This document shows, piece after piece, positions 3,301-49,974 of a stretch of 64,000 nt of DNA. Each line of letters begins with the position of its first letter. Position 1 is the stretch's first letter. Under the pieces are notes generated by a model that did no database searches, had not been told where the DNA came from, and worked only from the letters and a program-made list of their open reading frames with translations. Both the position numbers and the translations under genes were made by a program. The stretch is from a virus. The stretch covers positions 1 to 64,000 of IMG/VR virus record IMGVR_UViG_3300020546_000003; one strand, written 5' to 3'.

Positions 3301-4998
3301 TTAGTAAGGAGCAGACAATTCAAATAAGATTGATTTTGTAGGATCTTTCAACCAGATATTAGATTGATTTTCCATGATAGTTGTAGAACCATCAAATCTA
3401 CTTGAAGCTACATTACCTCTACCTGCTGAAGGAGCATATGGAGATGTTCTACCTGCAATATAAGTTACTTTAGTACCTGGCATTCCTGCATTTCTTACTA
3501 AGTAAATATTTGCTCCAGTATCTACACCTTTAGCCCATTCTACTTGAGAAGTTACTTGAGCAGCATTTGTTGATGCTGAGTCTGTAACATCAAATATAGC
3601 AGAAGTGTAAGAATGTTTAGGGAAACCTCCAATATAAGGTTCATCTTCAGTTCTTGAGAACTGTGAATCAAATGCTGGGTTATGTTCTATTTCAAGAGTA
3701 CCTAAACCAGAGATGAATACAGATTGCATTCTATAACCAGAAGATAATTGAGATATACCATTTATTTCACCTACTTTTTTAACTATACCAAGATCAGCTG
3801 CTTGTAATACTGCACCAGCTTGATTAGCTGTTCTATTTAATTCTTCATTAAAGATTCTTTGAAGTTCATTAACTGCACCTCTACCACCTTGTAATTTGAA
3901 TTTTCTCATATAATCAGGAATGTCTGGTCTGTTTCTGAAAACTTGTCCAAATACATTCATTAAAGCTTGTTTAGAGTATCTAGGGATTTTAGCCCAGTTA
4001 CCTCTTTTCATTTGTTGGTATAAACCTTCACCTATGATTTGAGATTTGTTTCTAGCACCTTGTATAACACCTCCTTTTGCCCACATAAGATCTCTTTCTT
4101 CATCTAACATTAATTGTTTCATGATAAGAGCATCAGCCATAGACATCCAAGAAGCTGTACCAGGTTTAATACCTTGCATACCATCAGTACCTAATTTACC
4201 ATTACCTTCACCAATAACCATATAGAAATTAGGGTCATTTGGATTTAAAAGGTTAGAGTTACCTCCTACAAAGTCTACAGGAGTAGTACCATTATTTTTA
4301 TTGAATTGTAGATTCAATCTTTGAGCATTACCTGTGATAGTATACTCAACACCTCTTCTACCTCCCAATTGATGTTTTAATTTCATCATACCAAAAGAGT
4401 TCTCAATACCTGCAAAGTTTTCTGTGAATTCTCCACCTGTACCTGAAATTCTAAAGTATTGTGTACCTACAGATAAATATTTTTTATCAAAGTATTCATC
4501 TCTATTGTTAGTTACTAGTCTTACTTTGTAAATAAAACCTTGACCACTTTGAGCAGATGCTACATCCACAATGTAAAGATTTTGTCCATCTCTGAAGTCT
4601 GGAGTAATTCTTGTTCCAATTTGGAAAGTTGGTTCTAGATTACCATCACCTAAACAGATTTCAAATAATTGACCATCTTGACCTGGTTTAGCTATATCAG
4701 TACTCATTTCCTCTTTTACAGTAACACCATCTAATTGGTAAGGCATGTTGAAAGTTAATTCTCCATCATCTCCATTTAAATAGATAGTATTTTTTTGTAA
4801 TTCTGTCATTGACAATAATGGTGTAGAGATAAGAGACCATTGATTCCATGCTGAGAGAACTCCCATATGAGTAGATCTAATATCATCTCCAAACATCTTT
4901 AATAAGTTGTTTGAGTCTGTAAAAACTCCAGACATTCTATAATCTGCTTTTTTTACTACTAAGTTATTGCCAAAATTCTGAAAAGTAGGTGTTGCCAT
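3301..4998 (-). CDS. Major capsid protein
   Basis: 565 residues, MATPTFQNFG to ELSAPY. Its length, Gly/Asn-rich composition and place after portal and scaffold-like genes fit the HK97-fold major head protein of crAss-like phages. The central region has QGARNKSQIIGEGLYQQM, and the body alternates beta-rich and helical segments. Translation starts after an A-rich leader. The C-terminal peptide WLKDPTKSIL is repeated almost exactly in a small early protein at 46534-46782. The call rests on gene order and general character, not on a structural match. Confidence 0.8.
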   Translation of the reverse strand: MATPTFQNFGNNLVVKKADYRMSGVFTDSNNLLKMFGDDIRSTHMGVLSAWNQWSLISTPLLSMTELQKNTIYLNGDDGELTFNMPYQLDGVTVKEEMSTDIAKPGQDGQLFEICLGDGNLEPTFQIGTRITPDFRDGQNLYIVDVASAQSGQGFIYKVRLVTNNRDEYFDKKYLSVGTQYFRISGTGGEFTENFAGIENSFGMMKLKHQLGGRRGVEYTITGNAQRLNLQFNKNNGTTPVDFVGGNSNLLNPNDPNFYMVIGEGNGKLGTDGMQGIKPGTASWMSMADALIMKQLMLDEERDLMWAKGGVIQGARNKSQIIGEGLYQQMKRGNWAKIPRYSKQALMNVFGQVFRNRPDIPDYMRKFKLQGGRGAVNELQRIFNEELNRTANQAGAVLQAADLGIVKKVGEINGISQLSSGYRMQSVFISGLGTLEIEHNPAFDSQFSRTEDEPYIGGFPKHSYTSAIFDVTDSASTNAAQVTSQVEWAKGVDTGANIYLVRNAGMPGTKVTYIAGRTSPYAPSAGRGNVASSRFDGSTTIMENQSNIWLKDPTKSILFELSAPY

Positions 4999-5034: not shown

Positions 5035-6240
5035 TTATTTAAACCTATCAAATGTGGTAGGTCTGTTAAAAGTTTGTTTTTGTTTTTTAGTTTCTTCAGG
5101 AAACTCAGTATTTTTTCTAGTAATATTACCTTCTCTTATAAGTTGGAAAGTTTTTTTATTAGTTTCCTTTTCTATTTCTTTTTTATCTCCCACAGAATCA
5201 AAGTCTTTAACCATTTTAACAAGTTTTAAAAACTTTGCAGGATCAGATTGGATTTCTTGTATTTTTAAAAGATAATCAGAAGCTTTTCTTCCACCTTCAA
5301 TTACATGTTTAGTATCAAAATAAAACTTTTCTAATTCTTTTTTTTCTCTATCAGGAGTAGAATCTTTGTAGATAGCTTCTTTGAAAGTTTTTATGTATTT
5401 TTCTTGAGATTCTCTTTGATATTTAGCTTGTCTTTCTTGTTCTTGTAAAAGAGTTTGTCTATCTTCTTGTATAGCTTTCACTAGTGCTTCTTTTGCTTCT
5501 TCAGCAGCTTCTGATAAAGCTTCAGCTCCTTGATCTTTTAAGAACTCGATGTATTTTTTTGTATTTTTATCAGAAGCACCTAAAGCTTCTTGATAATTTT
5601 TTATTAATTCTTCAGCATGATCAGGATCTTCAGGATCATAAGAATCTATATTTTTTTGGTCAGCTTCAAATTTTGCTAAATCTTCAACTCTACCTCCATT
5701 TTTTATAAACTCATAAAAAGACTTATATTGTTCTCCTAGTTCTTCTTCTTTTTGTTGTAGAACAGATTCAGCTTTCCACTGTGCTTGTTTGATAGCTAGT
5801 TCTTGAAAAGATTCATCATCTAGCTCTAAATCTTCTATAGGTTGACCTTTTTCATCTTCTACAGGAAACCATTCTCCAGATTCTACTAACATCTTATAGT
5901 ATTGAGTTCTATCTAGACCTGTTGATTTTGTATTCTCAGTAGTAGGTTTATTATCTTTACTTTTACCAGAGTCTTTTTGAGTATCTTCTGTAGTAGTAGG
6001 TTCTGCACCTAAAACAGATAATTCCTCCTCTGTCATACTTGGGATTTCTCCAGGTATTAAAGTTTGATTGGGAATTACTGTGGTTTCAGTTTTGGTGTTT
6101 TCTACAGTTTCTGTTGTTTCTGTAGTAGCTCCAGGAGCATTATCTAAAGACTCTCCTGACAAAGCTTGAATCTCATCATCAGATAATGAGGCAACTTGAA
6201 AATCAGACATTTTTTTTGGTTTTTTGGTTTTGTGATACAA
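5035..6240 (-). CDS. Acidic coiled-coil protein, probable capsid scaffold or assembly protein
   Basis: 401 residues. The N-terminal third is Thr/Glu-rich and low in complexity. It is followed by a long Glu/Lys/Gln-rich helical region (about residues 150-340) and a basic tail (KKQKQTFNRPTTFDRFK). An acidic, coiled-coil protein directly before the major capsid gene is typical of scaffolding proteins. It lies 36 bases from the capsid start. Scaffold function is inferred from composition and position. Confidence 0.6.
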   Translation of the reverse strand: MYHKTKKPKKMSDFQVASLSDDEIQALSGESLDNAPGATTETTETVENTKTETTVIPNQTLIPGEIPSMTEEELSVLGAEPTTTEDTQKDSGKSKDNKPTTENTKSTGLDRTQYYKMLVESGEWFPVEDEKGQPIEDLELDDESFQELAIKQAQWKAESVLQQKEEELGEQYKSFYEFIKNGGRVEDLAKFEADQKNIDSYDPEDPDHAEELIKNYQEALGASDKNTKKYIEFLKDQGAEALSEAAEEAKEALVKAIQEDRQTLLQEQERQAKYQRESQEKYIKTFKEAIYKDSTPDREKKELEKFYFDTKHVIEGGRKASDYLLKIQEIQSDPAKFLKLVKMVKDFDSVGDKKEIEKETNKKTFQLIREGNITRKNTEFPEETKKQKQTFNRPTTFDRFK

Positions 6241-6630: not shown

Positions 6631-9524
6631 TATTTAGAAGGTTTTGGTTTAGTTCTAGCATTTTTAAGTTGAACTTTAGCTATATCTAGTTTTATCTTTC
6701 CTAACTTTTCATCATTTTTAGCTTCTTTATCTGCTAGTTTTGATTCTTTGTTTAGAACATCCATATCAGTTTTATGTTTCTTGTTAGCTAACTGTAACTG
6801 ATTTTGATTTTGTTCTCTAGAAGTTTGTTGTTTTATTTTCTCTGTTTGAGTTTTAGCTCTAAAAGCATCTTCTTTAGCTTTAATGTCTCTAGCTTGTAAA
6901 CTTAATTTTTGTTTCTCTAAAGAATGTTTTCTAGAAGATTCTAAGAATTTATGAGAATTGTCTAAGGTAGAGATATATTGATCATGGGAAAGTCTAGATT
7001 GTTCTATAGCTATTTTACCTTGTTCTATAGCATCTATCATATTATTATCAGCAGTATCTGTGTCAAAACCCATTACTTTTATAGAAGCTTCTTGTATTTT
7101 AGCTTCTCTATTGAGTTGATTTTGTTCTGCTTCAAATGCTTGAGCTTTATCTAAGGCTTCTTGTTGAGCTTTAATTTGTTGTTGTTGCATTTCTTGCTCA
7201 TGTTGTCTTTGAGCTTCTACTTCTTTTCTTTGATCTTCTTCTGCAACCTCCAAAGCTTTTTGTATAGCATTGATGTTTTTCAAAGATATGATAGATATAA
7301 GTTTAGACATAGGTAGGTTAGTAGTATTGTTCTCTACAGCTAATCTTCTAGCTAAATCTAAGTCTTGTAAAGTTTCTTGAGCATTATCTACATTTACACC
7401 CATATTCTTTAAGAGTAAATCTGTACCTGTAGTTTTTATGAAAGCATTGCCTAGGTCAGAAGTTATATAGTCCAGAGTAATGTCTCCTTTAGTACTAGCA
7501 ACATATTGTGCTAGGTCTATAAGCATTGTTAGTTTTCTTCTCTTATAGTTATAGAAGTTTTCATTGTAGGGTTCTGTAATTGCATAAGAATTCATTACAG
7601 CTGCTTGAATACCTGTAGCTGTTTCTGAAGCTTGAGTTTGTCCTTGTCTTTGTGGGGTAATACCTATTTGTTTGAAACCCATATCTTCTATAATAGCAGC
7701 CATTTGTAATAACTGCATAGCTTTTTCAGTTTCTCCTAAGTCTAGAACAGTAGTTTGATTAAATTGCACAGAACCTCCTGTGTTTGAAACAGATGTATCT
7801 AAAGGCACAATTCCTAACTCTCTACCTATAGCTAATCCTTTTTCTAAAGCTTGTTCTCCTCCCCAATCTTTAAAGTTAGATAAAAGTTTAACATCTAAGA
7901 AAGCTATCTTACCATTATTTCTTTGAGCTATACCATAAGCTTGATTTACAAGGGCATTATAAAATATCTGATAAGGTTTTAGTAGATCTACAAGGGAATT
8001 GGATTTAGCATTTCTATTGTTGAAGATACCTCCTACTACAGGAAGTTTTGGTTCAAAAGGAGTAAAATCCCCTTTGAATTGGAAAGGACAAGGTTTAACA
8101 TCAAAGTAAATAGCATTTCTATCTCTATCTTCTGTAGATTGAGAGAAATTAGCATTTATTTTACATCCTTGCCATATTTGAGTATGCCAAGTCCATACTA
8201 CACTATTTACAGGAAAGTCTTCGTTATAATTAACAAGAGGGGTGTCTCTTATTTCTTTTATATTGAAAAGTTTTGGGTTAAAAGATTCATCTACTATTTG
8301 TGTGGTAGCTTCACCAGTTTCAGGATCAGCTATAGTTAAGTAACCTATTCTAGATTGACTTCTCCAATAAGCTTCTGTAACTTGAACTAAGTCTCCTGTT
8401 GCAAATTGGAAATTAGGAAAACCTGTGTTTAAGTCTTCATAACCCAAAGTAGGAAGATTTCCTACAGGAGTATTATTCCAAGGGTCAAATCCTATAGAAG
8501 TAGTTACATTTGCATAATCTCTGTAAGCAGGAAAAGGATACATTGTAGCATTAAAGAACTCTCCATATACATTTCCTTGTGTCTCTCTATAGTCTTTAGG
8601 GTATAATTTTTTAATTTGCTCTTCAGCCATTCTCCAACCAAATCTATCTATTACTGTAGATTTGTTCATATAGAATACTCTACCTACATAATCTCCTTTT
8701 TCTATATGTGGAAGATCTGGATGCTGATGGAAAAATACATTTAAAGGGTTCCAATATTCTAGATTATAACCTGTAGGTGTGAGGTACATATGTGAAAAGC
8801 ATCTATCTGCTATCAACATATCTGTAAACTCTACTTTTTCTAGTTCTCTAAAGTTAAATCTTTTTCTATCATTAGAAAGTACAGCTTGTCCCCATTCTTC
8901 AGCAGAAGTTCTGTAGTCATACCTCATATATTTTTCAATATTCTTAGGAGTTAACTCCTGGTATTTTTCTTGAACTTGTTGTTGGTATTGTTGAGCTTCT
9001 TCTTCTGTTTTGAAGTCTTTCTTGTTAGGGTCTATTCCTTGTTGTTGTAACTTAAGAGTTATTTCTCTTTGGATTTCTTCCATCATAAACTGATGTAATA
9101 AATCAGTCTTAACTCTTAATCTTTCATTAGTAGCATCTGGTCCACTTTCCACCACAGAAAATATATCAGGTCTCTTAAGGTATTCTCCTACTAAAAGTTG
9201 AACAGCCTTACCTATAATATCATAATGTTTTAAGTGAGAAGGAATTTCAAACTCTTGAGATATAGCAGATACTAAATCTACATACTCATTCTTTCTCATA
9301 TAATGGGCTAAATCAAACTCTTTAGATACTATCTTGTAGTTTTCCTTTAAAGCCATATTTTGAGCAAACTGATACCTTCCTACAGCTTCTAAAGCATCCA
9401 TAGTATCTTTCATCCATTTGGACACACCAAATTTATCCAACTCTTCTAGTTTCTTAGTAAGAGGTAGTTGTTGTCTGGGTAAAGCTGCATTTAAAGGTTT
9501 GCTTGTATCTATAGCACTTGTCAT
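6630..9524 (-). CDS. Portal protein
   Basis: 964 residues between terminase and scaffold-like genes, the usual place of the portal. The body (about residues 30-640) is alpha/beta with aromatic-rich stretches (YRTSAEEWGQAVL, IWQGCKINANFSQS). The last 250 residues are a long Gln/Glu/Lys-rich coiled coil. Portals of crAss-like phages are large, and this long helical tail is consistent with a barrel or extension. The protein would form the packaging vertex with the large terminase encoded just upstream. Confidence 0.78.
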   Translation of the reverse strand: MTSAIDTSKPLNAALPRQQLPLTKKLEELDKFGVSKWMKDTMDALEAVGRYQFAQNMALKENYKIVSKEFDLAHYMRKNEYVDLVSAISQEFEIPSHLKHYDIIGKAVQLLVGEYLKRPDIFSVVESGPDATNERLRVKTDLLHQFMMEEIQREITLKLQQQGIDPNKKDFKTEEEAQQYQQQVQEKYQELTPKNIEKYMRYDYRTSAEEWGQAVLSNDRKRFNFRELEKVEFTDMLIADRCFSHMYLTPTGYNLEYWNPLNVFFHQHPDLPHIEKGDYVGRVFYMNKSTVIDRFGWRMAEEQIKKLYPKDYRETQGNVYGEFFNATMYPFPAYRDYANVTTSIGFDPWNNTPVGNLPTLGYEDLNTGFPNFQFATGDLVQVTEAYWRSQSRIGYLTIADPETGEATTQIVDESFNPKLFNIKEIRDTPLVNYNEDFPVNSVVWTWHTQIWQGCKINANFSQSTEDRDRNAIYFDVKPCPFQFKGDFTPFEPKLPVVGGIFNNRNAKSNSLVDLLKPYQIFYNALVNQAYGIAQRNNGKIAFLDVKLLSNFKDWGGEQALEKGLAIGRELGIVPLDTSVSNTGGSVQFNQTTVLDLGETEKAMQLLQMAAIIEDMGFKQIGITPQRQGQTQASETATGIQAAVMNSYAITEPYNENFYNYKRRKLTMLIDLAQYVASTKGDITLDYITSDLGNAFIKTTGTDLLLKNMGVNVDNAQETLQDLDLARRLAVENNTTNLPMSKLISIISLKNINAIQKALEVAEEDQRKEVEAQRQHEQEMQQQQIKAQQEALDKAQAFEAEQNQLNREAKIQEASIKVMGFDTDTADNNMIDAIEQGKIAIEQSRLSHDQYISTLDNSHKFLESSRKHSLEKQKLSLQARDIKAKEDAFRAKTQTEKIKQQTSREQNQNQLQLANKKHKTDMDVLNKESKLADKEAKNDEKLGKIKLDIAKVQLKNARTKPKPSK

Positions 9525-32995: not shown

Positions 32996-33017
32996 TATTT
33001 TAAGATTTTAAGTATAA

Positions 33018-33057
33018 AAGTCCTAGTATAGTAAAATATACTAGGACTTATTTTTTC
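33018..33057 (+). terminator. Intrinsic terminator
   Basis: AAGTCCTAGTATA/TATACTAGGACTT perfect stem followed by ATTTTTTC. Confidence 0.9.
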
Positions 33058-33072
33058 ATTAAAACAAACAAA

Positions 33073-33657
33073 ATGATAAAATTATATAAAGTAAACAATA
33101 AAGAAATAGGTATGCAAAAATTAACTTTTATAGAGTTAATCTTAATAAATATACCTATATCTATAGTACTTTTCTTATTATTTATAGCAATAGGTTCTTC
33201 AAACCCTAAAATAATAACTAAAACAACAACAAACACTACAATAATACATGATACTTTACAACAATTAGTTGTGCTCAGATCAGGTCTTACAGAAATAACC
33301 CTAGATAGAAATAAAAATATAGCTAAATTTTGCTATAATCCAGGTAATATAAGACCAGGAAATAAACAAATAGATGCTTTAGCAATAGGCACAATAAGCT
33401 CTATAAATGGAGAATTTTTATACTTTCCCAGTGAAGAACAAGGATTTAAAGCTCTTGAAATTCTTCTACAAACTAAATATGCAGAAAATACTATACAAGA
33501 ATGTATACAAAAATATGCTCCTCCTTGTGAAAACAATACCTCTAAATATATACAAGATATTTGTAACAAACTAAAAAAACCTTCTACTACTAAGATAAAA
33601 GACTTAGATATTAAAAAACTATCTAAAGAAATAGCTATTATAGAAGGGTATTATTAA
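33073..33657 (+). CDS. Membrane-anchored peptidoglycan-hydrolase-like protein
   Basis: 194 residues. One transmembrane helix at about 20-43 (IELILINIPISIVLFLLFIAI) is followed by a domain with NPGNIRPG, FPSEEQGFKALEILLQTKY, NTIQECIQKYAPPCENNTSKYI. This pattern recurs in phage structural and lysis proteins related to muramidase folds. Its membrane anchor suggests action at the inner membrane or periplasm. The catalytic residue is not identified. Confidence 0.55.
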   Translation: MIKLYKVNNKEIGMQKLTFIELILINIPISIVLFLLFIAIGSSNPKIITKTTTNTTIIHDTLQQLVVLRSGLTEITLDRNKNIAKFCYNPGNIRPGNKQIDALAIGTISSINGEFLYFPSEEQGFKALEILLQTKYAENTIQECIQKYAPPCENNTSKYIQDICNKLKKPSTTKIKDLDIKKLSKEIAIIEGYY

Positions 33658-33677
33658 TAAAAATAAAACTTATAAAA

Positions 33678-34046
33678 ATGGAAAAATACTTTTTATCTTA
33701 TGATTTAGCTTCAGAAATAGAAAAATTAGGATTTAATGAATCTTGTTTAGGTAGATGGGTAATTGTTACAGAATGGGAAAACCCTACAGGAGAAATTATA
33801 TTTCAATTGGGAAGAGAAAAAGACAATAACAATACTACTAGATTTCAATATATAGCACCACTTTATCAACAAGTAATAGATTGGTTTGAAAAAGAACATA
33901 ATATATTCATAGGTAGAACTTGTTATGATGATGGTAAAACTCCTAAAAGATGGGTATATCATGTAGATAGTTATTATGTACAAGAACAATTTTATGATGG
34001 GGCTATAAGATATGCAATAGATAAAATTAAAAATACACAATTATGA
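33678..34046 (+). CDS. Small phage protein, function unknown
   Basis: 122 residues, Trp/Tyr-rich (FLSYDLASEIEKLGFNE, WFEKEHNIFIG, YYVQEQFYDGAIRYAIDKI). Such proteins are frequent in Bacteroidota phages and usually unnamed. It overlaps the next gene by 4 bases. Confidence 0.5.
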   Translation: MEKYFLSYDLASEIEKLGFNESCLGRWVIVTEWENPTGEIIFQLGREKDNNNTTRFQYIAPLYQQVIDWFEKEHNIFIGRTCYDDGKTPKRWVYHVDSYYVQEQFYDGAIRYAIDKIKNTQL

Positions 34047-34291
34047 ATTATTTAGTAATAAAAGATGATACAATAATACAAGTTTGTACTTCTGTAGAAG
34101 ATTTATTAGAATATCTAGAAGTAAATGTTACTGATAAAGGAATTGTAAAAATTGGTAATAATAATTTACCTACTACTTATAATATGAAAGAATATACTAA
34201 AGAAGAAATAATATCAGATATTATAAAATATAAATTAAAAACTATAGAATCTGTGTTAAAAATTGGTATTTATAAATTAGAAAGAATATAA
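34043..34291 (+). CDS. Small protein, function unknown
   Basis: 82 residues, coupled by a 4-base overlap to the preceding gene; mixed alpha/beta, basic C-terminus. Unknown role. Confidence 0.45.
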   Translation: MNYLVIKDDTIIQVCTSVEDLLEYLEVNVTDKGIVKIGNNNLPTTYNMKEYTKEEIISDIIKYKLKTIESVLKIGIYKLERI

Positions 34292-34296
34292 AAATT

Positions 34297-34587
34297 ATGA
34301 TAGATATAAATAAAGAAGCAGAAGAATATGCTAAACAATTTGATTATCCTGAAGATTCTGCTCCATCAACTTGTTTTATAGCAGGAGCAAACTCAAAATA
34401 TGTAAAAGAACAAATAATACAAGCTAAAATAGATGTATTAGATAATTGTTTAGCTGATATGTATCTTTATTCTAGTTTTGAAAATGGATTTGAACAATAT
34501 TCTGATGCTTATTATAATTTAGAAAATTCATATAAAAAAAGTTTAAATAAACTTAGAGAAGAATTAAAACAATTACAAGATGTATAA
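34297..34587 (+). CDS. Small helical phage protein, function unknown
   Basis: 96 residues. EEYAKQFDYPEDSAPSTCFI followed by AGANSKYVKEQI is a common theme in small phage proteins. The rest is coiled coil. It overlaps the next gene by 8 bases. Confidence 0.45.
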   Translation: MIDINKEAEEYAKQFDYPEDSAPSTCFIAGANSKYVKEQIIQAKIDVLDNCLADMYLYSSFENGFEQYSDAYYNLENSYKKSLNKLREELKQLQDV

Positions 34588-34828
34588 AGACAAATATATA
34601 ACATCAGAAAAACTAGAAGGTACATTTAGACAAGATTTACCAATAGGTAATTTTTTAATACAAGGTTATTGTAGATTTGGTATAGAAGTAGGAAAGCCTA
34701 TAGATTTATTTAGTCATCTTATAAAAGGAGTTAGACCAGATTGTTGGACTTCTATAGTTAAAGAAATAAATGGAGATATTATTAAGACAGAAAATAGTAT
34801 TTATAAGATTACAATAAAAGAAAAATAA
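34580..34828 (+). CDS. Small protein, function unknown
   Basis: 82 residues, beta-rich, overlapping the previous gene and 1 base from the first DGR target gene, so perhaps cotranscribed with the DGR. Unknown role. Confidence 0.45.
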   Translation: MYKDKYITSEKLEGTFRQDLPIGNFLIQGYCRFGIEVGKPIDLFSHLIKGVRPDCWTSIVKEINGDIIKTENSIYKITIKEK

Positions 34829-34829
34829 A

Positions 34830-35414
34830 ATGACACAAAAAATTAGTAGAGTTAATCTCAAAGTCATCTATGACAATGTTTGTCAAGATTGGAAAAATAT
34901 AATAACTGATATGTTATTATGGAATGTAGAAAGTTCTATAGAAATAGAAGAAGAAACTATCTTAAAAGGATATAATCAAGCAAATTCTGAACAAAAAATA
35001 TTATTAGAAAAATACTTTAAAATAAACACACCTAAAGACTTAACAAAAACATTAAAAACTTGGAAAGATGTGTTAAAATATGCTAAAGAAAAAGGATATA
35101 ACTTTAAGTTACCTTATTCTGAAAAAACTCAAGTAAAAGAAGAAATATCTTTAAATGCTTTATGTAAAATACATTTATTAGCTAAAGTATTTAATGAAGA
35201 TTGGACAGCAAATTTTAAAGACTCAACTCAATACAAATATTATCCTTGGTTTGAAAGAAAAAGTTCTGGGTGGGTCTTTAGTGTTGTTTATTATCGGGCT
35301 TCTGTTTCTTCTAGTGGCTGGGGTGCTCTTTCATACTTTAAAAGTTCAGAAATAGTAAATTATATCGGTAACAATAAAGAATTTGTAAATATTTATAATG
35401 AATATTTACAATAA
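34830..35414 (+). CDS. DGR target protein 1 (variable protein)
   Basis: 194 residues. The C-terminal part reads YKYYPWFERKSSGWVFSVVY-like, then SSSGWGALSYFKSSEIVNYI, the layout of known Bacteroidota DGR target proteins (KYYPWF, variable loop, FKSSE). Residues 145-169 are the variable repeat (35264-35334), matched to the template at 35434 with changes only at template A. The second target at 36540 is a paralogue (LPY, ...LAKV, WK, YKY). It probably displays a variable ligand-binding surface; the ligand is unknown. Confidence 0.8.
   Translation: MTQKISRVNLKVIYDNVCQDWKNIITDMLLWNVESSIEIEEETILKGYNQANSEQKILLEKYFKINTPKDLTKTLKTWKDVLKYAKEKGYNFKLPYSEKTQVKEEISLNALCKIHLLAKVFNEDWTANFKDSTQYKYYPWFERKSSGWVFSVVYYRASVSSSGWGALSYFKSSEIVNYIGNNKEFVNIYNEYLQ
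35264..35334 (+). repeat. DGR variable repeat 1 (VR1)
   Basis: 71 bases, aligned to TR1 with one 3-base gap. Of the 22 A positions in TR1, 18 differ in VR1 and 4 are kept. None of the 46 non-A positions differs. This is the signature of adenine-directed mutagenesis. The template codons are largely AAT-type at variable sites. Confidence 0.93.
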
Positions 35415-35433
35415 AGTTAATTATTTTATATTA

Positions 35434-35501
35434 TTCTAGGTAGGTCTTTAATGATGTTAATTATCAGAATTCTAATTCTAATAGCTAGAGTACTCTAACA
35501 T
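35434..35501 (+). repeat. DGR template repeat 1 (TR1)
   Basis: 68 bases, lying between target gene 1 and the reverse transcriptase, outside any gene. It has AAT codons in the VR frame at variable sites. Two in-frame TAG triplets correspond to TGG (Trp) in VR1. It is one codon shorter than VR1. Confidence 0.92.
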
Positions 35502-35605
35502 ATTTTGTATTTAAAGAAATAATTAACTTATCCTATAGGATAAAAATCAAGAAATATTTTAAAAAGTGTTTGGTAGGTCTATTCTCGAAGAACATTTAAA
35601 TTAAT

Positions 35606-36556
35606 ATGAAAAGAATAGGAAATTTATACAATCAAATATGTGATAGAAATAATATAGAATTAGCTATAAAAAATTCACAAAAAAGTAAGAAGAAAAATAA
35701 GAATGTTATAGAATTTAACAAAAATTATGAAAATAATTTAGAAATTTTAATAAATTTACTAAAAGAAGAAAAATATGTTATTTCAGACTATAAAATAAAA
35801 TATATTAAAGATGGAAATAAAATAAGGGAGTTAAAGATACTCCCTTATTTTCCAGATAGAATTATACAACATTGTATATTAAATATAATATCTTTTACGT
35901 TATTAAAAACTTTTCCTACTAATACTTATTCAGCAATTAAAAATAGAGGTATACATAAGTGTTTGTACAAGTTAAAAAGTATAATAAATAAGTATGACTA
36001 TTGTTTAAAACTGGATATTAAAAAATATTATGAAAATATAGATAATGACATATTAAAATCTTTTCTTTTAAAAAAATTTAAAGATAAACAATTATTAGAT
36101 TTACTTTTTCATATAATAGACAAAGAAAAGGGATGTGTAATTGGCTCTTATTTGTCACAATGGTTTGGTAATTTTTATTTATCTTATTTTATACACTATT
36201 TAAATGATAAAAAAGATATTAAAGTTTTAGTTTATATGGATGATATTGTTATATTAGGTAATAGTAAACAATTATTGTATGATTTAAAGTTAGAAATAAT
36301 AGAATATTTAAGAACTAAACTAAAGTTAGAATTAAGTAATCATCAAGTATTTTCTCTTACACAAGGTATAGATTTTTTAGGCTACAAAACATTTAAAACA
36401 CACATTTTAATAAGGAAAAGAATAAAATTAAATTTTATTAAAATGATTAAAACAAATTATAATGAAAAGTCAATTAATAGTTATTTAGGTTGGCTTTGCC
36501 ACGGAAATACATTAAATTTACAACAAAAATACATTAAAAATGCAAAAAACAATTAA
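35606..36556 (+). CDS. DGR-type reverse transcriptase
   Basis: 316 residues. Key motifs are YCLKLDIKKYYENID (first catalytic Asp), VIGSYLSQWFGNFYLS (DGR/retron-like motif 4 with SQ) and VLVYMDDIVILG, with YMDD at residues 210-213. It copies template RNA with errors at adenines to mutate the two variable repeats. It overlaps the second target gene by 17 bases. No Avd-like accessory gene is seen nearby. Length fits DGR enzymes. Confidence 0.93.
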   Translation: MKRIGNLYNQICDRNNIELAIKNSQKSKKKNKNVIEFNKNYENNLEILINLLKEEKYVISDYKIKYIKDGNKIRELKILPYFPDRIIQHCILNIISFTLLKTFPTNTYSAIKNRGIHKCLYKLKSIINKYDYCLKLDIKKYYENIDNDILKSFLLKKFKDKQLLDLLFHIIDKEKGCVIGSYLSQWFGNFYLSYFIHYLNDKKDIKVLVYMDDIVILGNSKQLLYDLKLEIIEYLRTKLKLELSNHQVFSLTQGIDFLGYKTFKTHILIRKRIKLNFIKMIKTNYNEKSINSYLGWLCHGNTLNLQQKYIKNAKNN

Positions 36557-37034
36557 TTTAACAAAAAAAGAAGCTATTAAATTTTATAATAGTGCACAAG
36601 ATCAAGGATTTAAAGATTTATTAGAAACAAATTTTGGTAAAGATTTCTGGAAACAAGAAATTACAGATTTAGTATATGATTTAGATTCTTTAAAAGAATA
36701 TTGTAAAAATAACAATATATCTTTTTCTTTACCTTATCTTTGTGATACTCAAGATAGTTTAGAAAAAACATTAAATGCTACTTACATATTAGCAAAAGTT
36801 GCTAAAATATATAATAAAGGAACTATTTTAAATTGGAAAAACAATAATGAATACAAGTATTTACCTTATTTATATTTTTCTGGTGGTTCTGGGGTTGCTG
36901 CTGGTGTTTCTTTTTATTGGGATTCTGATTTGTTTGCTTCTTATTGTTTGTACTATAAAAACTCAAATTTAAGCACAAAATCTTATAATAACTTTAAAAA
37001 ATATTGGGAAGATTATTGGGGAGTAGAACAATAA
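36540..37034 (+). CDS. DGR target protein 2 (variable protein)
   Basis: 164 residues, paralogue of target 1 (both have LPY, LAKV, a WK segment, YKYxP). Residues 113-138 (FSGGSGVAAG..., ending LY) form the variable repeat 36876-36953. Its start overlaps the end of the reverse transcriptase. Template TR2 lies 24 bases after its stop. It would present a second diversified surface. Confidence 0.8.
   Translation: MQKTINLTKKEAIKFYNSAQDQGFKDLLETNFGKDFWKQEITDLVYDLDSLKEYCKNNNISFSLPYLCDTQDSLEKTLNATYILAKVAKIYNKGTILNWKNNNEYKYLPYLYFSGGSGVAAGVSFYWDSDLFASYCLYYKNSNLSTKSYNNFKKYWEDYWGVEQ
36876..36953 (+). repeat. DGR variable repeat 2 (VR2)
   Basis: 78 bases, aligned to TR2 with one 3-base gap (extra GGT codon). 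Of 23 template A positions, 18 differ; among the remaining 52 bases one differs (C to T). Clear adenine-directed pattern. Confidence 0.92.
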
Positions 37035-37057
37035 TATAAAAAAGAGATAAATAAATA

Positions 37058-37132
37058 TTTTCTAGTAGTTCTAGGGTTACTAATGATTCTAATAATTGGA
37101 ATTCTAATTTGAATACTCCTAATTGTTTAAAC
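37058..37132 (+). repeat. DGR template repeat 2 (TR2)
   Basis: 75 bases outside any gene, downstream of target 2. In the VR frame it reads as AAT-rich codons without stops (TTT TCT AGT AGT TCT AGG ...). It is one codon shorter than VR2. The sequence is distinct from TR1, so the two targets have separate templates. Confidence 0.92.
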
Positions 37133-37201
37133 TTAATTATAATACAAACAATTTTATTTATCTTAACCTATTGGTTAAAAAAACAAGCAAAATCTTAAAA
37201 C

Positions 37202-37240
37202 AAATCCCTTAGTACCTTTAGTGTGGAAAAGGGATTTTTT
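37202..37240 (+). terminator. Intrinsic terminator after the DGR
   Basis: AAATCCCTT/AAGGGATTTTTT stem and T-run; closes the DGR transcript. Confidence 0.8.
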
Positions 37241-37268
37241 AATTAAGTACAAAAATATAAAGTAAAAT

Positions 37269-37454
37269 ATGGAATTACCAATATTAATACCTACAATATA
37301 TGTAGATACTCCAGAACATAAAAAAACTATTCAATATGGGAAATATTTAGTAGTAAGAAAAGATGGTAAAACTCACTTAGAAACATTTAATGGAACTGGA
37401 TGGGCTTATAATCATAATACTATTATAGCTTATTATTTACCTAAAATTAATTAA
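37269..37454 (+). CDS. Small protein, function unknown
   Basis: 61 residues, beta-like (KYLVVRKDGKTHLETFNGTG), ending 2 bases before the next start. Unknown role. Confidence 0.45.
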   Translation: MELPILIPTIYVDTPEHKKTIQYGKYLVVRKDGKTHLETFNGTGWAYNHNTIIAYYLPKIN

Positions 37455-37456
37455 AA

Positions 37457-37747
37457 ATGAATTATTTAGATACATTAAAACAAAAAAAATCAATAGATAC
37501 AGAGTATGAAACTCAAAAAGAGTTATTATTACAACAAATAACTAACATAAATACTCTATATAGTAAATATAATGGAGATTTTTTAAAAGAATTAAGTCAA
37601 TTTACTAAAGATTATGAAGAAAGAAGAAAAATTAAATTGGGACAACTTCTCACTGAAATTTCATCCAACTTGGAGAAACAAAATGAAAAAAATAGTGGAA
37701 AGCCCTCAATTATTTCAGATATTCCAAGAACTGAAGAAGCAATCTAG
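37457..37747 (+). CDS. Coiled-coil protein, overlapping the UDG-like gene
   Basis: 96 residues, helical, Gln/Glu/Lys-rich, ending in TAG. Its last 134 bases overlap the UDG-like frame if that gene starts at 37614. A frameshift relic or a true long overlap cannot be told apart by eye. Confidence 0.45.
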   Translation: MNYLDTLKQKKSIDTEYETQKELLLQQITNINTLYSKYNGDFLKELSQFTKDYEERRKIKLGQLLTEISSNLEKQNEKNSGKPSIISDIPRTEEAI

Positions 37748-38303
37748 CCAAGGAAACAAATTATATCCTCAAAGTAAAGATATATTTGAATTTTTAAATT
37801 TTGATATATCTAAACTAAAAGTATTAATCTTAGGAGATATTCCTCATACCTATAGTAATGGGATATGGTTAGATTGTAGTAATAACACAATAGTTTCTAA
37901 AGATTTAGAATATTTTTATAATAATATAGAAAAAGATCTTTATAACCTAGATTTTAACTATGATAGAAACAATAAAAGTTTAGAATATCTTAAGGAACAA
38001 GGGGTTATATTATCTTCTTGTTCTTTAGTATCTAATAATATAGAACTTTTTAAGCTTTTTTGGAAGTTAATGTTTGAAGAAATCTTTAACACACAAGCAG
38101 GTTTACATATTATAGCTGTAGGAAAAGAAGCTCAAAAAATATTAGTAGAGAACTCAGAACCTTTTATACACTATACTTATTACCTAGAATCTTGGGATAA
38201 AACTCTAGAATATCCTAAATTTAATACTTTTTCTATTATAAATAAACTATTAGAAAAAGATAATGGTAAAGAATTTACAATACAATGGCTAAAAACAATT
38301 TAA
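37614..38303 (+). CDS. Uracil-DNA-glycosylase-like protein, active site degenerate
   Basis: 229 residues. The order of blocks follows family 1 UDG: FHPTWRNKMKK near the start, LYPQSKDIFEFLNFD, then KVLILGDIPHTYSNGIWLD where UDG has VILGQDPYH, QGVILSSCSLV where UDG has QGVLLLN, and AGLHIIAVGKEAQK where UDG has the VFxLWGxxAQ strand. The catalytic Asp-Pro-Tyr-His and HPSP elements are replaced. It may bind DNA or the host enzyme without cutting. An alternative start is ATG 37682, but the N-terminal similarity favours 37614. Confidence 0.55.
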   Translation: MKKEEKLNWDNFSLKFHPTWRNKMKKIVESPQLFQIFQELKKQSSQGNKLYPQSKDIFEFLNFDISKLKVLILGDIPHTYSNGIWLDCSNNTIVSKDLEYFYNNIEKDLYNLDFNYDRNNKSLEYLKEQGVILSSCSLVSNNIELFKLFWKLMFEEIFNTQAGLHIIAVGKEAQKILVENSEPFIHYTYYLESWDKTLEYPKFNTFSIINKLLEKDNGKEFTIQWLKTI

Positions 38304-38455
38304 AACATCTATTATTAATACCTTGTATAATATTTATAACTCTAATAATGAAAGATTTGACAAATATTCCTTTAGTAAGAGATTGGTTATATTTTATATT
38401 ATTAGAGTTTTTCTTACAAGTATATTATAATAGAATAGTAAAAGAAGATTTATAA
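38285..38455 (+). CDS. Small membrane protein
   Basis: 56 residues; two hydrophobic segments (LLLIPCIIFITLIM and WLYFILLEFFLQVYY). It overlaps the end of the UDG-like gene by 19 bases. Confidence 0.45.
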   Translation: MAKNNLKHLLLIPCIIFITLIMKDLTNIPLVRDWLYFILLEFFLQVYYNRIVKEDL

Positions 38456-38474
38456 ATAATAAAATAAATAAAAA

Positions 38475-38780
38475 ATGAAACAAGTAAATATAAAAAAACA
38501 AAAAATAGTATTAACAGGATATTTATTTAATATATTACCTGGAATTTTAATAACAGATGATCATAAAGAACAATTTGAGTATCATTTTGAAAAAAAAGAT
38601 ATATTAGATATTATACTAGATAATATTTCTGACTATAACAGTAAAAAAACAGTAACTTTAGATAAGTTGACAAATCAAGAAATTAACAAAGCTGTTTATA
38701 TTTGTCAACAAATAGTTCAAGATGTAGACTATGCTAACAATTTATTTGCTTTGAGTAAAAAATATAGAGGTTTATTATAA
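38475..38780 (+). CDS. Small protein, function unknown
   Basis: 101 residues, beta N-terminal half, helical C-terminal half. The stop overlaps the next start by one base. Unknown role. Confidence 0.45.
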   Translation: MKQVNIKKQKIVLTGYLFNILPGILITDDHKEQFEYHFEKKDILDIILDNISDYNSKKTVTLDKLTNQEINKAVYICQQIVQDVDYANNLFALSKKYRGLL

Positions 38781-39331
38781 TGAAAACTATATTTTCAGAT
38801 AAATCAAAGATAATTGACCTTTGGATAGAACAAAAACAAGATTTTGCTGGGACTCCTTTAAGTGTAATAACAGATAGTAGTATAAAACAAAGAAGATTAT
38901 TCTTTAAAGGAGATACTATTTATAGTTATAGAGAATCTTATCCTTTAGCTAGATTATTAGGAGATAAGATATATTTAAGAGAGGAAAATTATAGTAGAAC
39001 AACAAGTAAACAAAAACTTTGTATACAAAGTAGGGCTTTAAAATATAATAAAAAAATAATATTTTCAGATGATTTGAAAAATGAAAATATTAAAGATAAA
39101 AAATTACAAATTGCTTTAGAAAAATTATTAAAAGCTAGACTTTGGAAAGATTATTATATTTATGCTATTTCTAATTTAATAGCAAATAATGAAAATAATC
39201 TTATAACTAAATCTAAATTTCCTTTATTATTTGATGAAAAACATGAAAAAGTAAAACAAATGTTATTTTCTCAAGATAATGAAACAGTTAATTTAGCAAT
39301 AAAAATTATAAAACAAGAAAAACTAATATAA
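38780..39331 (+). CDS. Protein with C-terminal S-x-D-x-E-T helix motif
   Basis: 183 residues, basic, coupled to neighbours. The tail FSQDNETVNLAIKIIKQ matches a helix motif (SxDxETxxLAxxII) found in at least three other proteins of this window. Function unknown. Confidence 0.45.
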   Translation: MKTIFSDKSKIIDLWIEQKQDFAGTPLSVITDSSIKQRRLFFKGDTIYSYRESYPLARLLGDKIYLREENYSRTTSKQKLCIQSRALKYNKKIIFSDDLKNENIKDKKLQIALEKLLKARLWKDYYIYAISNLIANNENNLITKSKFPLLFDEKHEKVKQMLFSQDNETVNLAIKIIKQEKLI

Positions 39332-47336: not shown

Positions 47337-49974
47337 AAAACAAGAAAAAGAATTACAAAATATAATATTTACTATTATAAATAATTCTAAATTAGTATTT
47401 TTTGGATTATTTTTAACTGAAGTTGGTAAGTTTTTTGATAAAAGAATACAAACAGCATGTTTAGCCAAACATCCAAATGCTAAAATACCTGTAATGTTAT
47501 TTAATCCTGATTTTTGGGATACATTAACTGAAAAACAAAGAATATTCTTAGTTTTACATGAAACAGACCACTTAATTTCTCAGGCTTTCTTATTCTGTAA
47601 AGAATTTGGATTAGAACATCCTTTAGATAATATAGCTTTAGATCTTACTATCAATTCTAGATTAGTAAACAATTATCAAAATGAATTAGAATTTATAGAA
47701 GGAGGAATGCTACCTAAGATTTTTCCTGAATTAAAGTTAGAAGAAGAAAAAGATAGTCTTTATTATTATAATAAGCTTAAAGAAGCTAAAGACAATAAGC
47801 AAAAATCTAAAGAGAAAGGAGAAGATAGTCAAGCAGGTGAACCTGGCAATGGTAATGGTACTTCTGGAGATAAAAACTTAGATGATTTGTTAGATAATCA
47901 AGAAAAAATAGATAATCACTCCCAATGGTCAGAGCTTACAGAAGGTATGTCAGACCTAGAAAAAGAAGTTCTTAAAAGAGATATTATGAGTAGATTAGAT
48001 AAAATATCTGAAGAAGTAACTAAGCAAAATGGTACTATACCAAAACATTTAAAAGGACAACTAAACAAAATAACTAAAATAAAAGAAGTAGTTAATTGGA
48101 AATCTTTATTTAGAAAGTTTATTGGTTCTACTATATCTTCTGAAATACTATCAAATAGAAAAAGACCTAGTAAAAGATTTGAAGAAAATCCTTCTACTAA
48201 ACATAAATTTAAAGTAAGAGGTGTATTTTTATCTGATTAAAAATTGGCATGGTTTTTGTGTTTTATATGTGGAACTATTTCTCATTAAGACTAACAAAAA
48301 TTAAAAATGATTAAAAAAAAAATATGGACAAAAGAAGAAGAAGAACTTCTTAAAAAATTGATAATTGATAAAAAAACAACTGTTAAACAATTAGAAAGTA
48401 TTTTTAGCACTTTAAAATCAAACATTTATAGTAAAATAAAAAGATTAAATTTATCTTTTACAGATTATTCTTTATTAAAAAATAAAAATTATCTTATAAA
48501 AGATGATATTATAACTGATTATAAAAATGGTTTAAATTGCTATCAAATAGCTAAAAAATACAAGACAACAAACACTTCTGTTGCAAAAATATTAAAATTA
48601 AATAATATTAAAATCATACCTTATCATTTAAAAAGTGCTAAAAAATATGATTTTAATGAAAACTATTTTGATTTAATAGACACAAAAGAAAAAGCTTATT
48701 GGCTTGGATTAATATATGCTGACGGAAATATATCAAAAAATTCTTTAAGAATATCTTTAAAAATATCAGATATTGATATTTTAAAAAAATTTAAAGATTG
48801 TATAGAATACACAGGAGATATAAAAATAAGTCGGAAAAAAGATAACATTATTTATGGTAAAAATTGCAATTTTGAAGATACTGCAACTATAAATATTTAC
48901 TCAAAGCATATTTTTAATACAATACAAAAGTGGGGAGTTGTTCCTAACAAAACACATTTATTAACTTTTCCAAGTTTTTTAAAAAAAGAATTAATTAAAA
49001 GTTTTATGTTAGGATATTTTGATGGAGATGGTGGAGTGAGTTTAACAAAAAGAACAGGTGAAATTAACATTAGTATTATAGGAACGGAAATATTTATTTT
49101 AGAATATCAAAACATATTAATAAAAGAGTTAGATTTTAAAAAAACTAAACTATATGAAAGATATCCTGAAAGAAATACAAATACTAGAAATTTTAATTAC
49201 GGTGGAAATAAACAATTATCAAGATTTATAGAATGGTTATATAAAGATGAACCATTATTTTTGTCCAGAAAATACAATAAATTAATCAACAATGTCAAGA
49301 GTCCTGTAAAAAAGTAATTTTTTATAAGTATGTAGTGAATTGACTGGAAACCCCTTAGAGCTTTGTACACTCTCACAAACAGTAATGTTTTGTGTATAGT
49401 AAAAGAGACAAAGATTGGGCAATCAGCAGCCAAGTATCCTAATTAAAGGATAAAGGTTCAACGACTATTCCAGTGATGGAAGTACACTCAAGTGAGTGGA
49501 AGTGCTACACACCCTTATGAAAGGGTGATGATATAGTCTAATCTTATAGGAAACTATAAGCAGTTTAATAAACGAATATAAATTAACGACTTATATTGAA
49601 TACAAATGTCAAGTGGTTCAGTTAGTAATCAAGATTTAGAAAGATGTAATGCTGAATTATATAATGTTTGGAAAGCTGGAGGAAATATAGATTATGCTAG
49701 TTGGGATGCAGAAGTAGAACCTACTAAAAAATATGATGGTAAATTAGAAATTACAAGAACTAAATGTGGTGGCACAGATTTAAATTGTGCTTTAATAGAG
49801 ACAAACAACAATTATAGACAAAAAGGTTGGAATTTTGCTATTATAACAACTGATGGATATATACCTGCTATTACTGTAAAAACTAAAATTCCTACTATGA
49901 TTATTATAACTGAAGGAGGTTCCACAAGTTTTAATAATCCTTATAATTATAAAATAGTTAAAATTAATAAATAA
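47326..49974 (+). CDS. Metallopeptidase-fold/VWA protein (DUF2201-like), split by an intron
   Basis: Exons 47326-48237 and 49609-49974. The N-terminal domain has FLVLHETDHLISQA (HETDH, a HExxH site) and NIALDLTIN, as in DUF2201 N-domains. A Lys/Glu/Gly linker follows (about 150-185). The VWA domain is interrupted after GVFLSD; joining to SSGSVSNQD restores the MIDAS DSSGS. The second exon carries the later VWA part with CGGTDLNCA and FAIITTDGYIP. Unspliced message gives a truncated protein. It probably acts with the MoxR ATPase at 44984. Confidence 0.75.
48238..49608 (+). other. Group I intron in the VWA gene
   Basis: 1371 bases with a LAGLIDADG gene in its 5' half. The core lies at about 49410-49550: GGGCAATCAGCAGCCAAG (P4-P6 side), GTTCAACGACTATTCC (P3/P7) and GATGATATAGTC (P7). 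The intron follows a U (GAT) and ends in G (AAATG). The frame is restored exactly. I could not find a convincing internal guide pairing with the 5' exon, so that boundary rests on the protein motif. Confidence 0.8.
48307..49317 (+). CDS. LAGLIDADG homing endonuclease in the VWA-gene intron
   Basis: 336 residues. The N-terminal 115 residues hold helix-turn-helix segments (WTKEEEELLKKLI, YQIAKKYKTTNTSVAKIL). The endonuclease has two dodecapeptides, YWLGLIYADGNI (about 130) and FMLGYFDGDGGV (about 237), so it acts as a monomer. It spreads the intron by cutting intronless VWA alleles. Frame is sense to the intron. Confidence 0.85.
   Translation: MIKKKIWTKEEEELLKKLIIDKKTTVKQLESIFSTLKSNIYSKIKRLNLSFTDYSLLKNKNYLIKDDIITDYKNGLNCYQIAKKYKTTNTSVAKILKLNNIKIIPYHLKSAKKYDFNENYFDLIDTKEKAYWLGLIYADGNISKNSLRISLKISDIDILKKFKDCIEYTGDIKISRKKDNIIYGKNCNFEDTATINIYSKHIFNTIQKWGVVPNKTHLLTFPSFLKKELIKSFMLGYFDGDGGVSLTKRTGEINISIIGTEIFILEYQNILIKELDFKKTKLYERYPERNTNTRNFNYGGNKQLSRFIEWLYKDEPLFLSRKYNKLINNVKSPVKK

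Follow-up and report, generated by a model that had tools for sequence, protein, structure and literature searches.

The phage analysed here carries a diversity-generating retroelement (DGR) in which a single reverse transcriptase (RT) probably makes use of two template RNAs. At the level of sequence, two A-biased pairs of template repeat (TR) and variable repeat (VR), one RT gene in the records examined, a structured RNA element of the P1-P2-P3 type at both TRs and the recurrence of the layout in relatives are found. Both units are presumably active at present.

The DNA, here called the window, comprises 64,000 of the 66,660 bases of the virus record IMGVR_UViG_3300020546_000003 and has 25 % G+C. 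By its gene content the phage is crAss-like. A crAss-type major capsid protein (PF23898, 3.5e-14, 52.5 bits against a cut-off of 27) places it in the Crassvirales; its gene lies on the minus strand together with those for portal and terminase. The plus strand, which carries the DGR, encodes a DNA polymerase A, a DnaB-like helicase, a Sak4-like protein and a primase-like gene. Both target genes of the DGR are located within this replication block, and the gene content agrees with the earlier note, which had assigned the DGR to the early region of a crAss-like phage. A gene for a LAGLIDADG-like endonuclease (48307-49317; PF14528, 8e-10) belongs to the same block. TAG ends 4 of the 48 open reading frames (ORFs) counted in the window, where 52 are listed.

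An IMG/VR record of 168,934 bases (the 169 kb record) is 100 % identical to the window across the 12,948 nt compared. It is the sole near-identical record, and its VRs are those of the window. Invariant VRs are, to the letter, an outcome that the earlier note named as refuting; but since no difference at all occurs in these 12.9 kb, they are uninformative about the VRs in particular; the record may stem from the same population and thus provides no test of VR variation.

The cassette is composed of the following features.

34830-35414, + strand: target gene 1, an ORF of 194 aa with a KYYPWF-type C-terminal region
35264-35340, + strand: VR1 in target gene 1, from ungapped and gapped alignment, one codon more than TR1
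35434-35507, + strand: TR1, from ungapped and gapped alignment
35606-36556, + strand: RT gene, 316 aa (Pfam RVT_1 1.2e-14; phrog_1423 8.5e-90)
36540-37034, + strand: target gene 2, an ORF of 164 aa whose start overlaps the RT end
36873-36954, + strand: VR2 in target gene 2, from ungapped and gapped alignment, one codon more than TR2
37058-37133, + strand: TR2, from ungapped and gapped alignment

The order target 1, TR1, RT, target 2, TR2, already given in the earlier note, was confirmed in the sequence, with all members on the + strand. The RT contains the motifs IGSYLSQ and YMDD and thereby follows the GxxxSQ and YxDD rules for DGR-type RTs (PMC12386605; PMC11054128). Each VR is situated in the 3' part of its own gene. 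Relatives of target gene 1 were found at 69 distinct loci, including the near-identical 169 kb record. A structure model of target 1, examined for the C-type lectin fold of DGR targets, was uninformative: its pLDDT is below 50 at residues 141-156, a stretch that covers part of the VR and its border, and at E<=0.001 it matched no PDB entry. Among the three cassette ORFs neither Pfam nor PHROGs named an avd gene. In 9 of 12 annotated crAss-like records, the gene listed directly upstream of the RT codes for a tail or tail-collar fibre protein. In three phages (window 36540-36556; L092 6945-6948; L254 4950-4957) the first bases of the downstream target still belong to the RT gene, which suggests coupled translation.

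Both pairs have a TR near the RT, a VR in a target gene and differences at template A positions, as is characteristic of a DGR. In the ungapped scan, pair 1 (TR1 35434-35484 against VR1 35264-35314) is changed at 12 of 16 A and at 0 of 35 non-A positions. Pair 2 is represented by two ungapped blocks which overlap on shifted diagonals, namely TR2 37078-37133 against VR2 36899-36954 (A changed 15/20, non-A 1/36) and, at the 5' side, TR2 37058-37087 against VR2 36876-36905 (A changed 7/7, non-A 0/23). The gapped aligner, which is biased toward A mismatches, gave 17/23 A and 2/51 non-A changes for pair 1, both non-A changes in the last five columns, and 20/25 A and 2/54 non-A changes for pair 2, one in the second column and one inside. 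These two non-A changes in each pair count against the two-template reading. All of these values are close to those of the earlier note (18 of 22 A and 0 of 46 other positions for pair 1; 18 of 23 and 1 of 52 for pair 2).

It is extremely improbable that ordinary paralogy in an AT-rich genome, rather than a relation of template and variable repeat, accounts for the pairs. The 25 % G+C and some likeness between TR1 and TR2 (z 6.5) would fit such an origin, but most A positions differ while the non-A positions are nearly unchanged, and the best ungapped score of 35.8 compares with a maximum of 18.7 in 200 order-2 Markov resamples of positions 33000-39000, so that paralogy is already contradicted. 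Hypergeometric p values were set aside, because the aligner favours A mismatches and because the p values were low as well in the forced cross pairs TR1-VR2 and TR2-VR1. In gapped alignment these cross pairs show more non-A changes (9/48 and 7/43, respectively) and several gaps.

Both VRs exceed their TRs by 3 nt, one extra codon, a feature absent from the earlier note. The TR-VR distance thus changes from 170 before the insertion to 167 after it in pair 1 and from 182 to 179 in pair 2. The additional codon may be seen as the repeat of one that contains A. A shifted neighbouring segment was present in 4 of the 270 TR-VR pairs surveyed, always by 3 nt, and pair 2 of the window is among them; the shift of pair 1 is visible in the gapped alignment only. 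As slippage in multiples of three has been cited for AAC repeats (in PMC12875486), the extra codon is treated here as slippage or as the loss of a codon from the TRs, and not as a new activity. TR1 (35434-35507) holds two in-frame TAG codons which are TGG in VR1, so an unmutated copy would truncate target 1 if TAG is a stop, as in the standard code.

In related DGRs the TR is bracketed by a stem, P1, which is followed by a small hairpin, P2, and by a further stem, P3, with a GGTA-type motif, usually directly 5' of the RT. The corresponding elements of the window are these.

35415-35427, + strand: P1 5' strand of the TR1 unit, a 13-position helix, from the minimum-energy fold with letters checked
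35516-35528, + strand: P1 3' strand of the TR1 unit, from minimum-energy fold, helix search and letters; last base common to P2 as drawn
35528-35543, + strand: P2 hairpin of the TR1 unit, from minimum-energy fold, model match and letters; adjoins P1
35564-35597, + strand: P3 stem of the TR1 unit, from the model match, arms by letters; TTGGTA motif, directly 5' of the RT
37045-37055, + strand: P1 5' strand of the TR2 unit, from the minimum-energy fold; 10 pairs by helix search, 11 by letters
37153-37163, + strand: P1 3' strand of the TR2 unit, from minimum-energy fold, helix search and letters; last base common to P2 as drawn
37163-37178, + strand: P2 hairpin of the TR2 unit, from minimum-energy fold, model match and letters
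37202-37237, + strand: P3 stem of the TR2 unit, from the model match, arms by letters; 9-bp stem

P1, P2 and P3 are hence present in both units of the window, and the same pairs are filled by different bases; the arms of P2, for instance, read TTATCC/GGATAA at TR1 and TTAACC/GGTTAA at TR2. A T run overlaps the 3' end of P3 in the TR2 unit (to 37240), so this stem may double as a transcription terminator.

A covariance model, R1, was built from 32 relatives with no sequence of the window, P2 and P3 being specified by hand. In an unfiltered search of both strands of the 64 kb, its top match was 35514-35610 (24.2 bits, E 0.00053) and its second match 37148-37249 (19.1 bits, E 0.01), followed by a third match of 15.1 bits. 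The first two begin 7 nt past the end of TR1 and 15 nt past the end of TR2, which puts P2 and P3 directly 3' of either TR. On the 169 kb record only the two TR-adjacent sites were found at E<=1 (150 of 200 candidates scored). With default filters, 98 of 100 loci surveyed had a TR-adjacent match (99 matches, two of them in L143), and none was seen under these settings in L001, the window's own copy, or in L027. Three further matches are probably spurious (L086 minus, L073 4087, L038 minus). The 24.2 and 19.1 bits of the window are low against the 31-85 bits of the TR-adjacent survey matches; L233 likewise reaches only 24.3.

Support for P2 and P3 in the relatives comes from covariation. In an alignment of 102 rows, which was fitted to the model and contains none from the window and three probably spurious ones, 91.5 % of the cells are paired, and 205 double-change cells compare with 48.3 in shuffles (0 of 500). 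For P1 the comparison with shuffled strands gave p<=0.05 in 47 of 100 elements, the window's two being at 0.005 and 0.03; under a harsher cross-locus control, 30 of 101 were at <=0.05, with the window at 0.00 and 0.10. The signal of P1 is clearer with arms anchored on the model matches than without anchoring: duplex energies of the flanks across loci, not anchored on P2, were at <=0.05 for 17 % of 125, a mild excess, and at 0.37 and 0.53 for the window. Folding of the whole region with shuffled flanks was too unspecific, at least 8 spanning pairs occurring in 86 % of 125 TRs against 70 % of the controls. The minimum-energy folds of both TR regions include P1 and P2, with unremarkable energies (z -0.67 and -1.50).

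The arrangement target-TR-RT-target-TR is complete in two other crAss-like phages, L092 (contig of 94,209 bases) and L254 (94,231 bases), and partial in the contigs L251, L233 and L094. The TR-VR scans behind these results were limited to offsets of 1,500 or 2,500 nt, and in one of them six copies of the locus of the window were omitted (L001, L002, L020, L089, L090 and L170). The upstream target of L092 has its VR at 5695-5754 and its TR at 5843-5902, with 15 of 22 A positions and no others changed. The RT follows, and the downstream target, which overlaps the RT end, has its VR at 7261-7324 and its TR at 7409-7472 (15/24 A, 0 others). Both pairs of L092 show an offset of 148. Its first element was matched by R1 with 44.9 bits; the second is absent from the R1 matches at E<=1, and its P1 and P3 are recognisable by eye only. 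In L254 the upstream TR (3833-3898; 16/23 A changed, 1 other) is followed by the RT (4001-4957) and by a downstream target from 4950 with the TR at 5364-5431 (18/26 A, 0 others), and the two elements are the top matches of R1 (56.6 and 41.9 bits). The elements of L251 flank the RT at 206-302 (61.2 bits) and 1803-1906 (49.9 bits); its downstream pair is changed at 22 of 29 A and at 0 other positions, and the upstream VR is lost at the contig end. L233 and L094 possess the upstream pair and the start of a target after the RT, truncated where the contig stops. At the opposite end of the L233 contig the rest of target 2 was not found, so that the second TR of L233 is out of view.

The records of L092, L233 and L254 and the window's 169 kb match each contain a crAss-type capsid and one RVT_1 gene; no capsid match was found in the L094 record (16,626 bases). 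The RTs of L092, L094, L233 and L254 are 47 to 56 % identical to that of the window. In a tree of 30 RTs, those of the window, L092, L254, L251, L233 and L094 do not join the remaining 24, which form a 99/99 group; the forks among the six are weak, and the branch of the window is long (1.78 changes per column), which could mean relaxed constraint. Its recurrence in these relatives makes the arrangement look like a genuine two-template machine.

These data bear on two other explanations. One of the two units might be a relic, left by a formerly functional duplication and retaining no more than its repeats, only the other being active. The low R1 scores of the window and its long RT branch would fit a relic, and a possible loss of function has been suggested for pairs two and three of the crAss-like phages Lera and ct1yV3, which have 3 and 10 non-A changes (PMC12386605). 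However, both pairs of the window are nearly without non-A changes and the RNA element is kept at both, and L092 and L254 also have both pairs, for which the ungapped scan shows no more than 1 non-A change; a relic is rather improbable. It is much less probable still that TR2 is served by another RT, of the host or of a co-infecting phage, and lies beside the window RT by chance. The records may be incomplete, and action of a DGR in trans is conceivable, but the element at TR2 is of the same kind as that at TR1, the RT gene contains the start of target 2, and L092, L254 and L251 likewise have a downstream unit beside the RT. The claim of the earlier note that one RT serves two separate TR/VR pairs is thus upheld by the single RVT_1 gene in the 169 kb record, the two A-biased pairs and the element at both TRs.

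The downstream unit of the window resembles an upstream unit elsewhere. Target 2 is 52 % identical (E 1e-51) to the target upstream of the RT in L233, as against 31 % (E 2e-8) for target 1. Among the sequences compared, TR2 is closest to the TRs upstream of the RT in L233 and L094 (z 10.0 for TR2-L233), and the TR2 element is closest to the upstream elements of L233 and L094 (z 9.6 and 10.2), the second element of L092 giving 9.5. Judged by these similarities, the downstream unit of the window is orthologous to the L233 unit upstream of the RT, and the unit has changed sides. Since the best matches of target 1 are nearly equal (L254 upstream, 53.5 bits; L092 downstream, 53.1 bits), a clean swap of both units is unsupported, and the relation concerns the window-downstream and the L233-upstream unit. 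A homologue of target 2 also exists at L367 4001-4498, near a contig end, with 50 % identity to the L233 target; no TR-VR pair was found in that locus.

With one RT using both templates, a single + strand transcript would carry target 1, TR1, RT, target 2 and TR2. Each TR would fold as a unit of its own, closed by P1 and with P2 and P3 behind it, and the RT would recognise this fold and not the sequence of the TR. By analogy with BPP-1, cDNA synthesis would start just 3' of each TR, with template A miscopied, and each cDNA would replace only the VR that matches it in sequence, so that target 1 and target 2 would be diversified separately. Beyond the window, we lean slightly towards a more general view: TR and P1-P2-P3 would form a portable unit, and the sequence enclosed in it would thereby be licensed as a template for the RT. 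Such units would duplicate, diverge in their template and change sides, the fold being held by compensatory change, and one group of crAss-like phages would keep a version with two units, through which a single enzyme diversifies two small proteins independently of each other. If so, what the RT reads, an RNA fold, would be separable from what is copied, the TR, and a DGR could gain templates by acquiring further units. Two natural templates of unlike sequence but with the same kind of fold, next to one enzyme, would offer a ready comparison for the study of template choice and priming.

DGRs with several TRs are already known from published work (PMC6642488; PMC12386605), as is a structured RNA 3' of the TR which recruits the RT in BPP-1 (PMC12875486). 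Yan et al. 2019 (PMC6642488) report several VRs in 271 of 948 DGRs and one TR in 216 of these 271, which leaves 55 with more than one TR. Several TR-VR pairs have also been reported for Lera and ct1yV3 (PMC12386605). The two-TR layout is therefore less unusual than the earlier note had claimed. Lera and ct1yV3 resemble the window phage in being crAss-like and in having a DGR with several TR-VR pairs, beside one RT in the window. Their DGRs include avd and diversify tail fibres that contain Ig-like domains (PMC12386605), whereas the window has targets of 194 and 164 aa, and an avd gene was not named among its cassette ORFs; the second and third pairs of Lera and ct1yV3 carry the non-A changes given above, whereas both pairs of the window are nearly A-only. 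The account of the two phages in PMC12386605 mentions no RNA element at the TRs, in contrast to the element at both TRs of the window. Two diversified genes in one DGR, as in the window, occur in the tentaclin phages nd4 and nd12 (PMC10743442). In the surveyed loci L021 and L025 one TR matches both VRs, whereas each target of the window has its own TR.

BPP-1 has a structured spacer RNA 3' of its TR which recruits bRT-Avd and holds the priming site (PMC12875486), and the window is likened to it by the RNA 3' of its TRs. BPP-1 has one TR and the accessory protein Avd (PMC12875486), the window two TRs. A description of the two-sided layout or of the P1 bracket was not found in the literature within the search terms used.

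The Rfam family RT-17 (RF03020), which reportedly goes back to a paper on 224 candidate structured RNAs, resembles the R1-type element in its hairpin, linker and paired region with a UGGUA motif, directly 5' of the RT in relatives. The RT-17 threshold of 40.4 bits was passed by two of three loci searched (L093, 44.0; L036, 43.6), L143 remaining below it with 33.4 and 28.0 bits. In the window the TR1 site gave 18.8 bits (E 2.3), below the 40.4, and TR2 was not among the matches at E<=5. The 5' arm of P1 falls outside the 95-position RT-17 model.

The frequency of two-template DGRs was estimated from 361 sources (three scans merged), which were gathered by similarity to the RT and targets of the window and are no random sample. 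After removal of identical TR cores, 230 loci with TR and VR remained, 225 of them with one TR and five with two or more (window, L092, L254, L143 and L349). L251 was tallied with one TR, its upstream VR being truncated. L349 was rejected as a genuine case of two TRs, since both of its 'TRs' match the same VRs and the second lacks an R1 match. One TR matching at least two VR positions was seen in 175 of the 361 sources, a coarse count which may split one VR and includes repeats. In L143 (3109-3202 and 5770-5881) and its close relative L144, two TR units both lie upstream of the RT, with an element at each.
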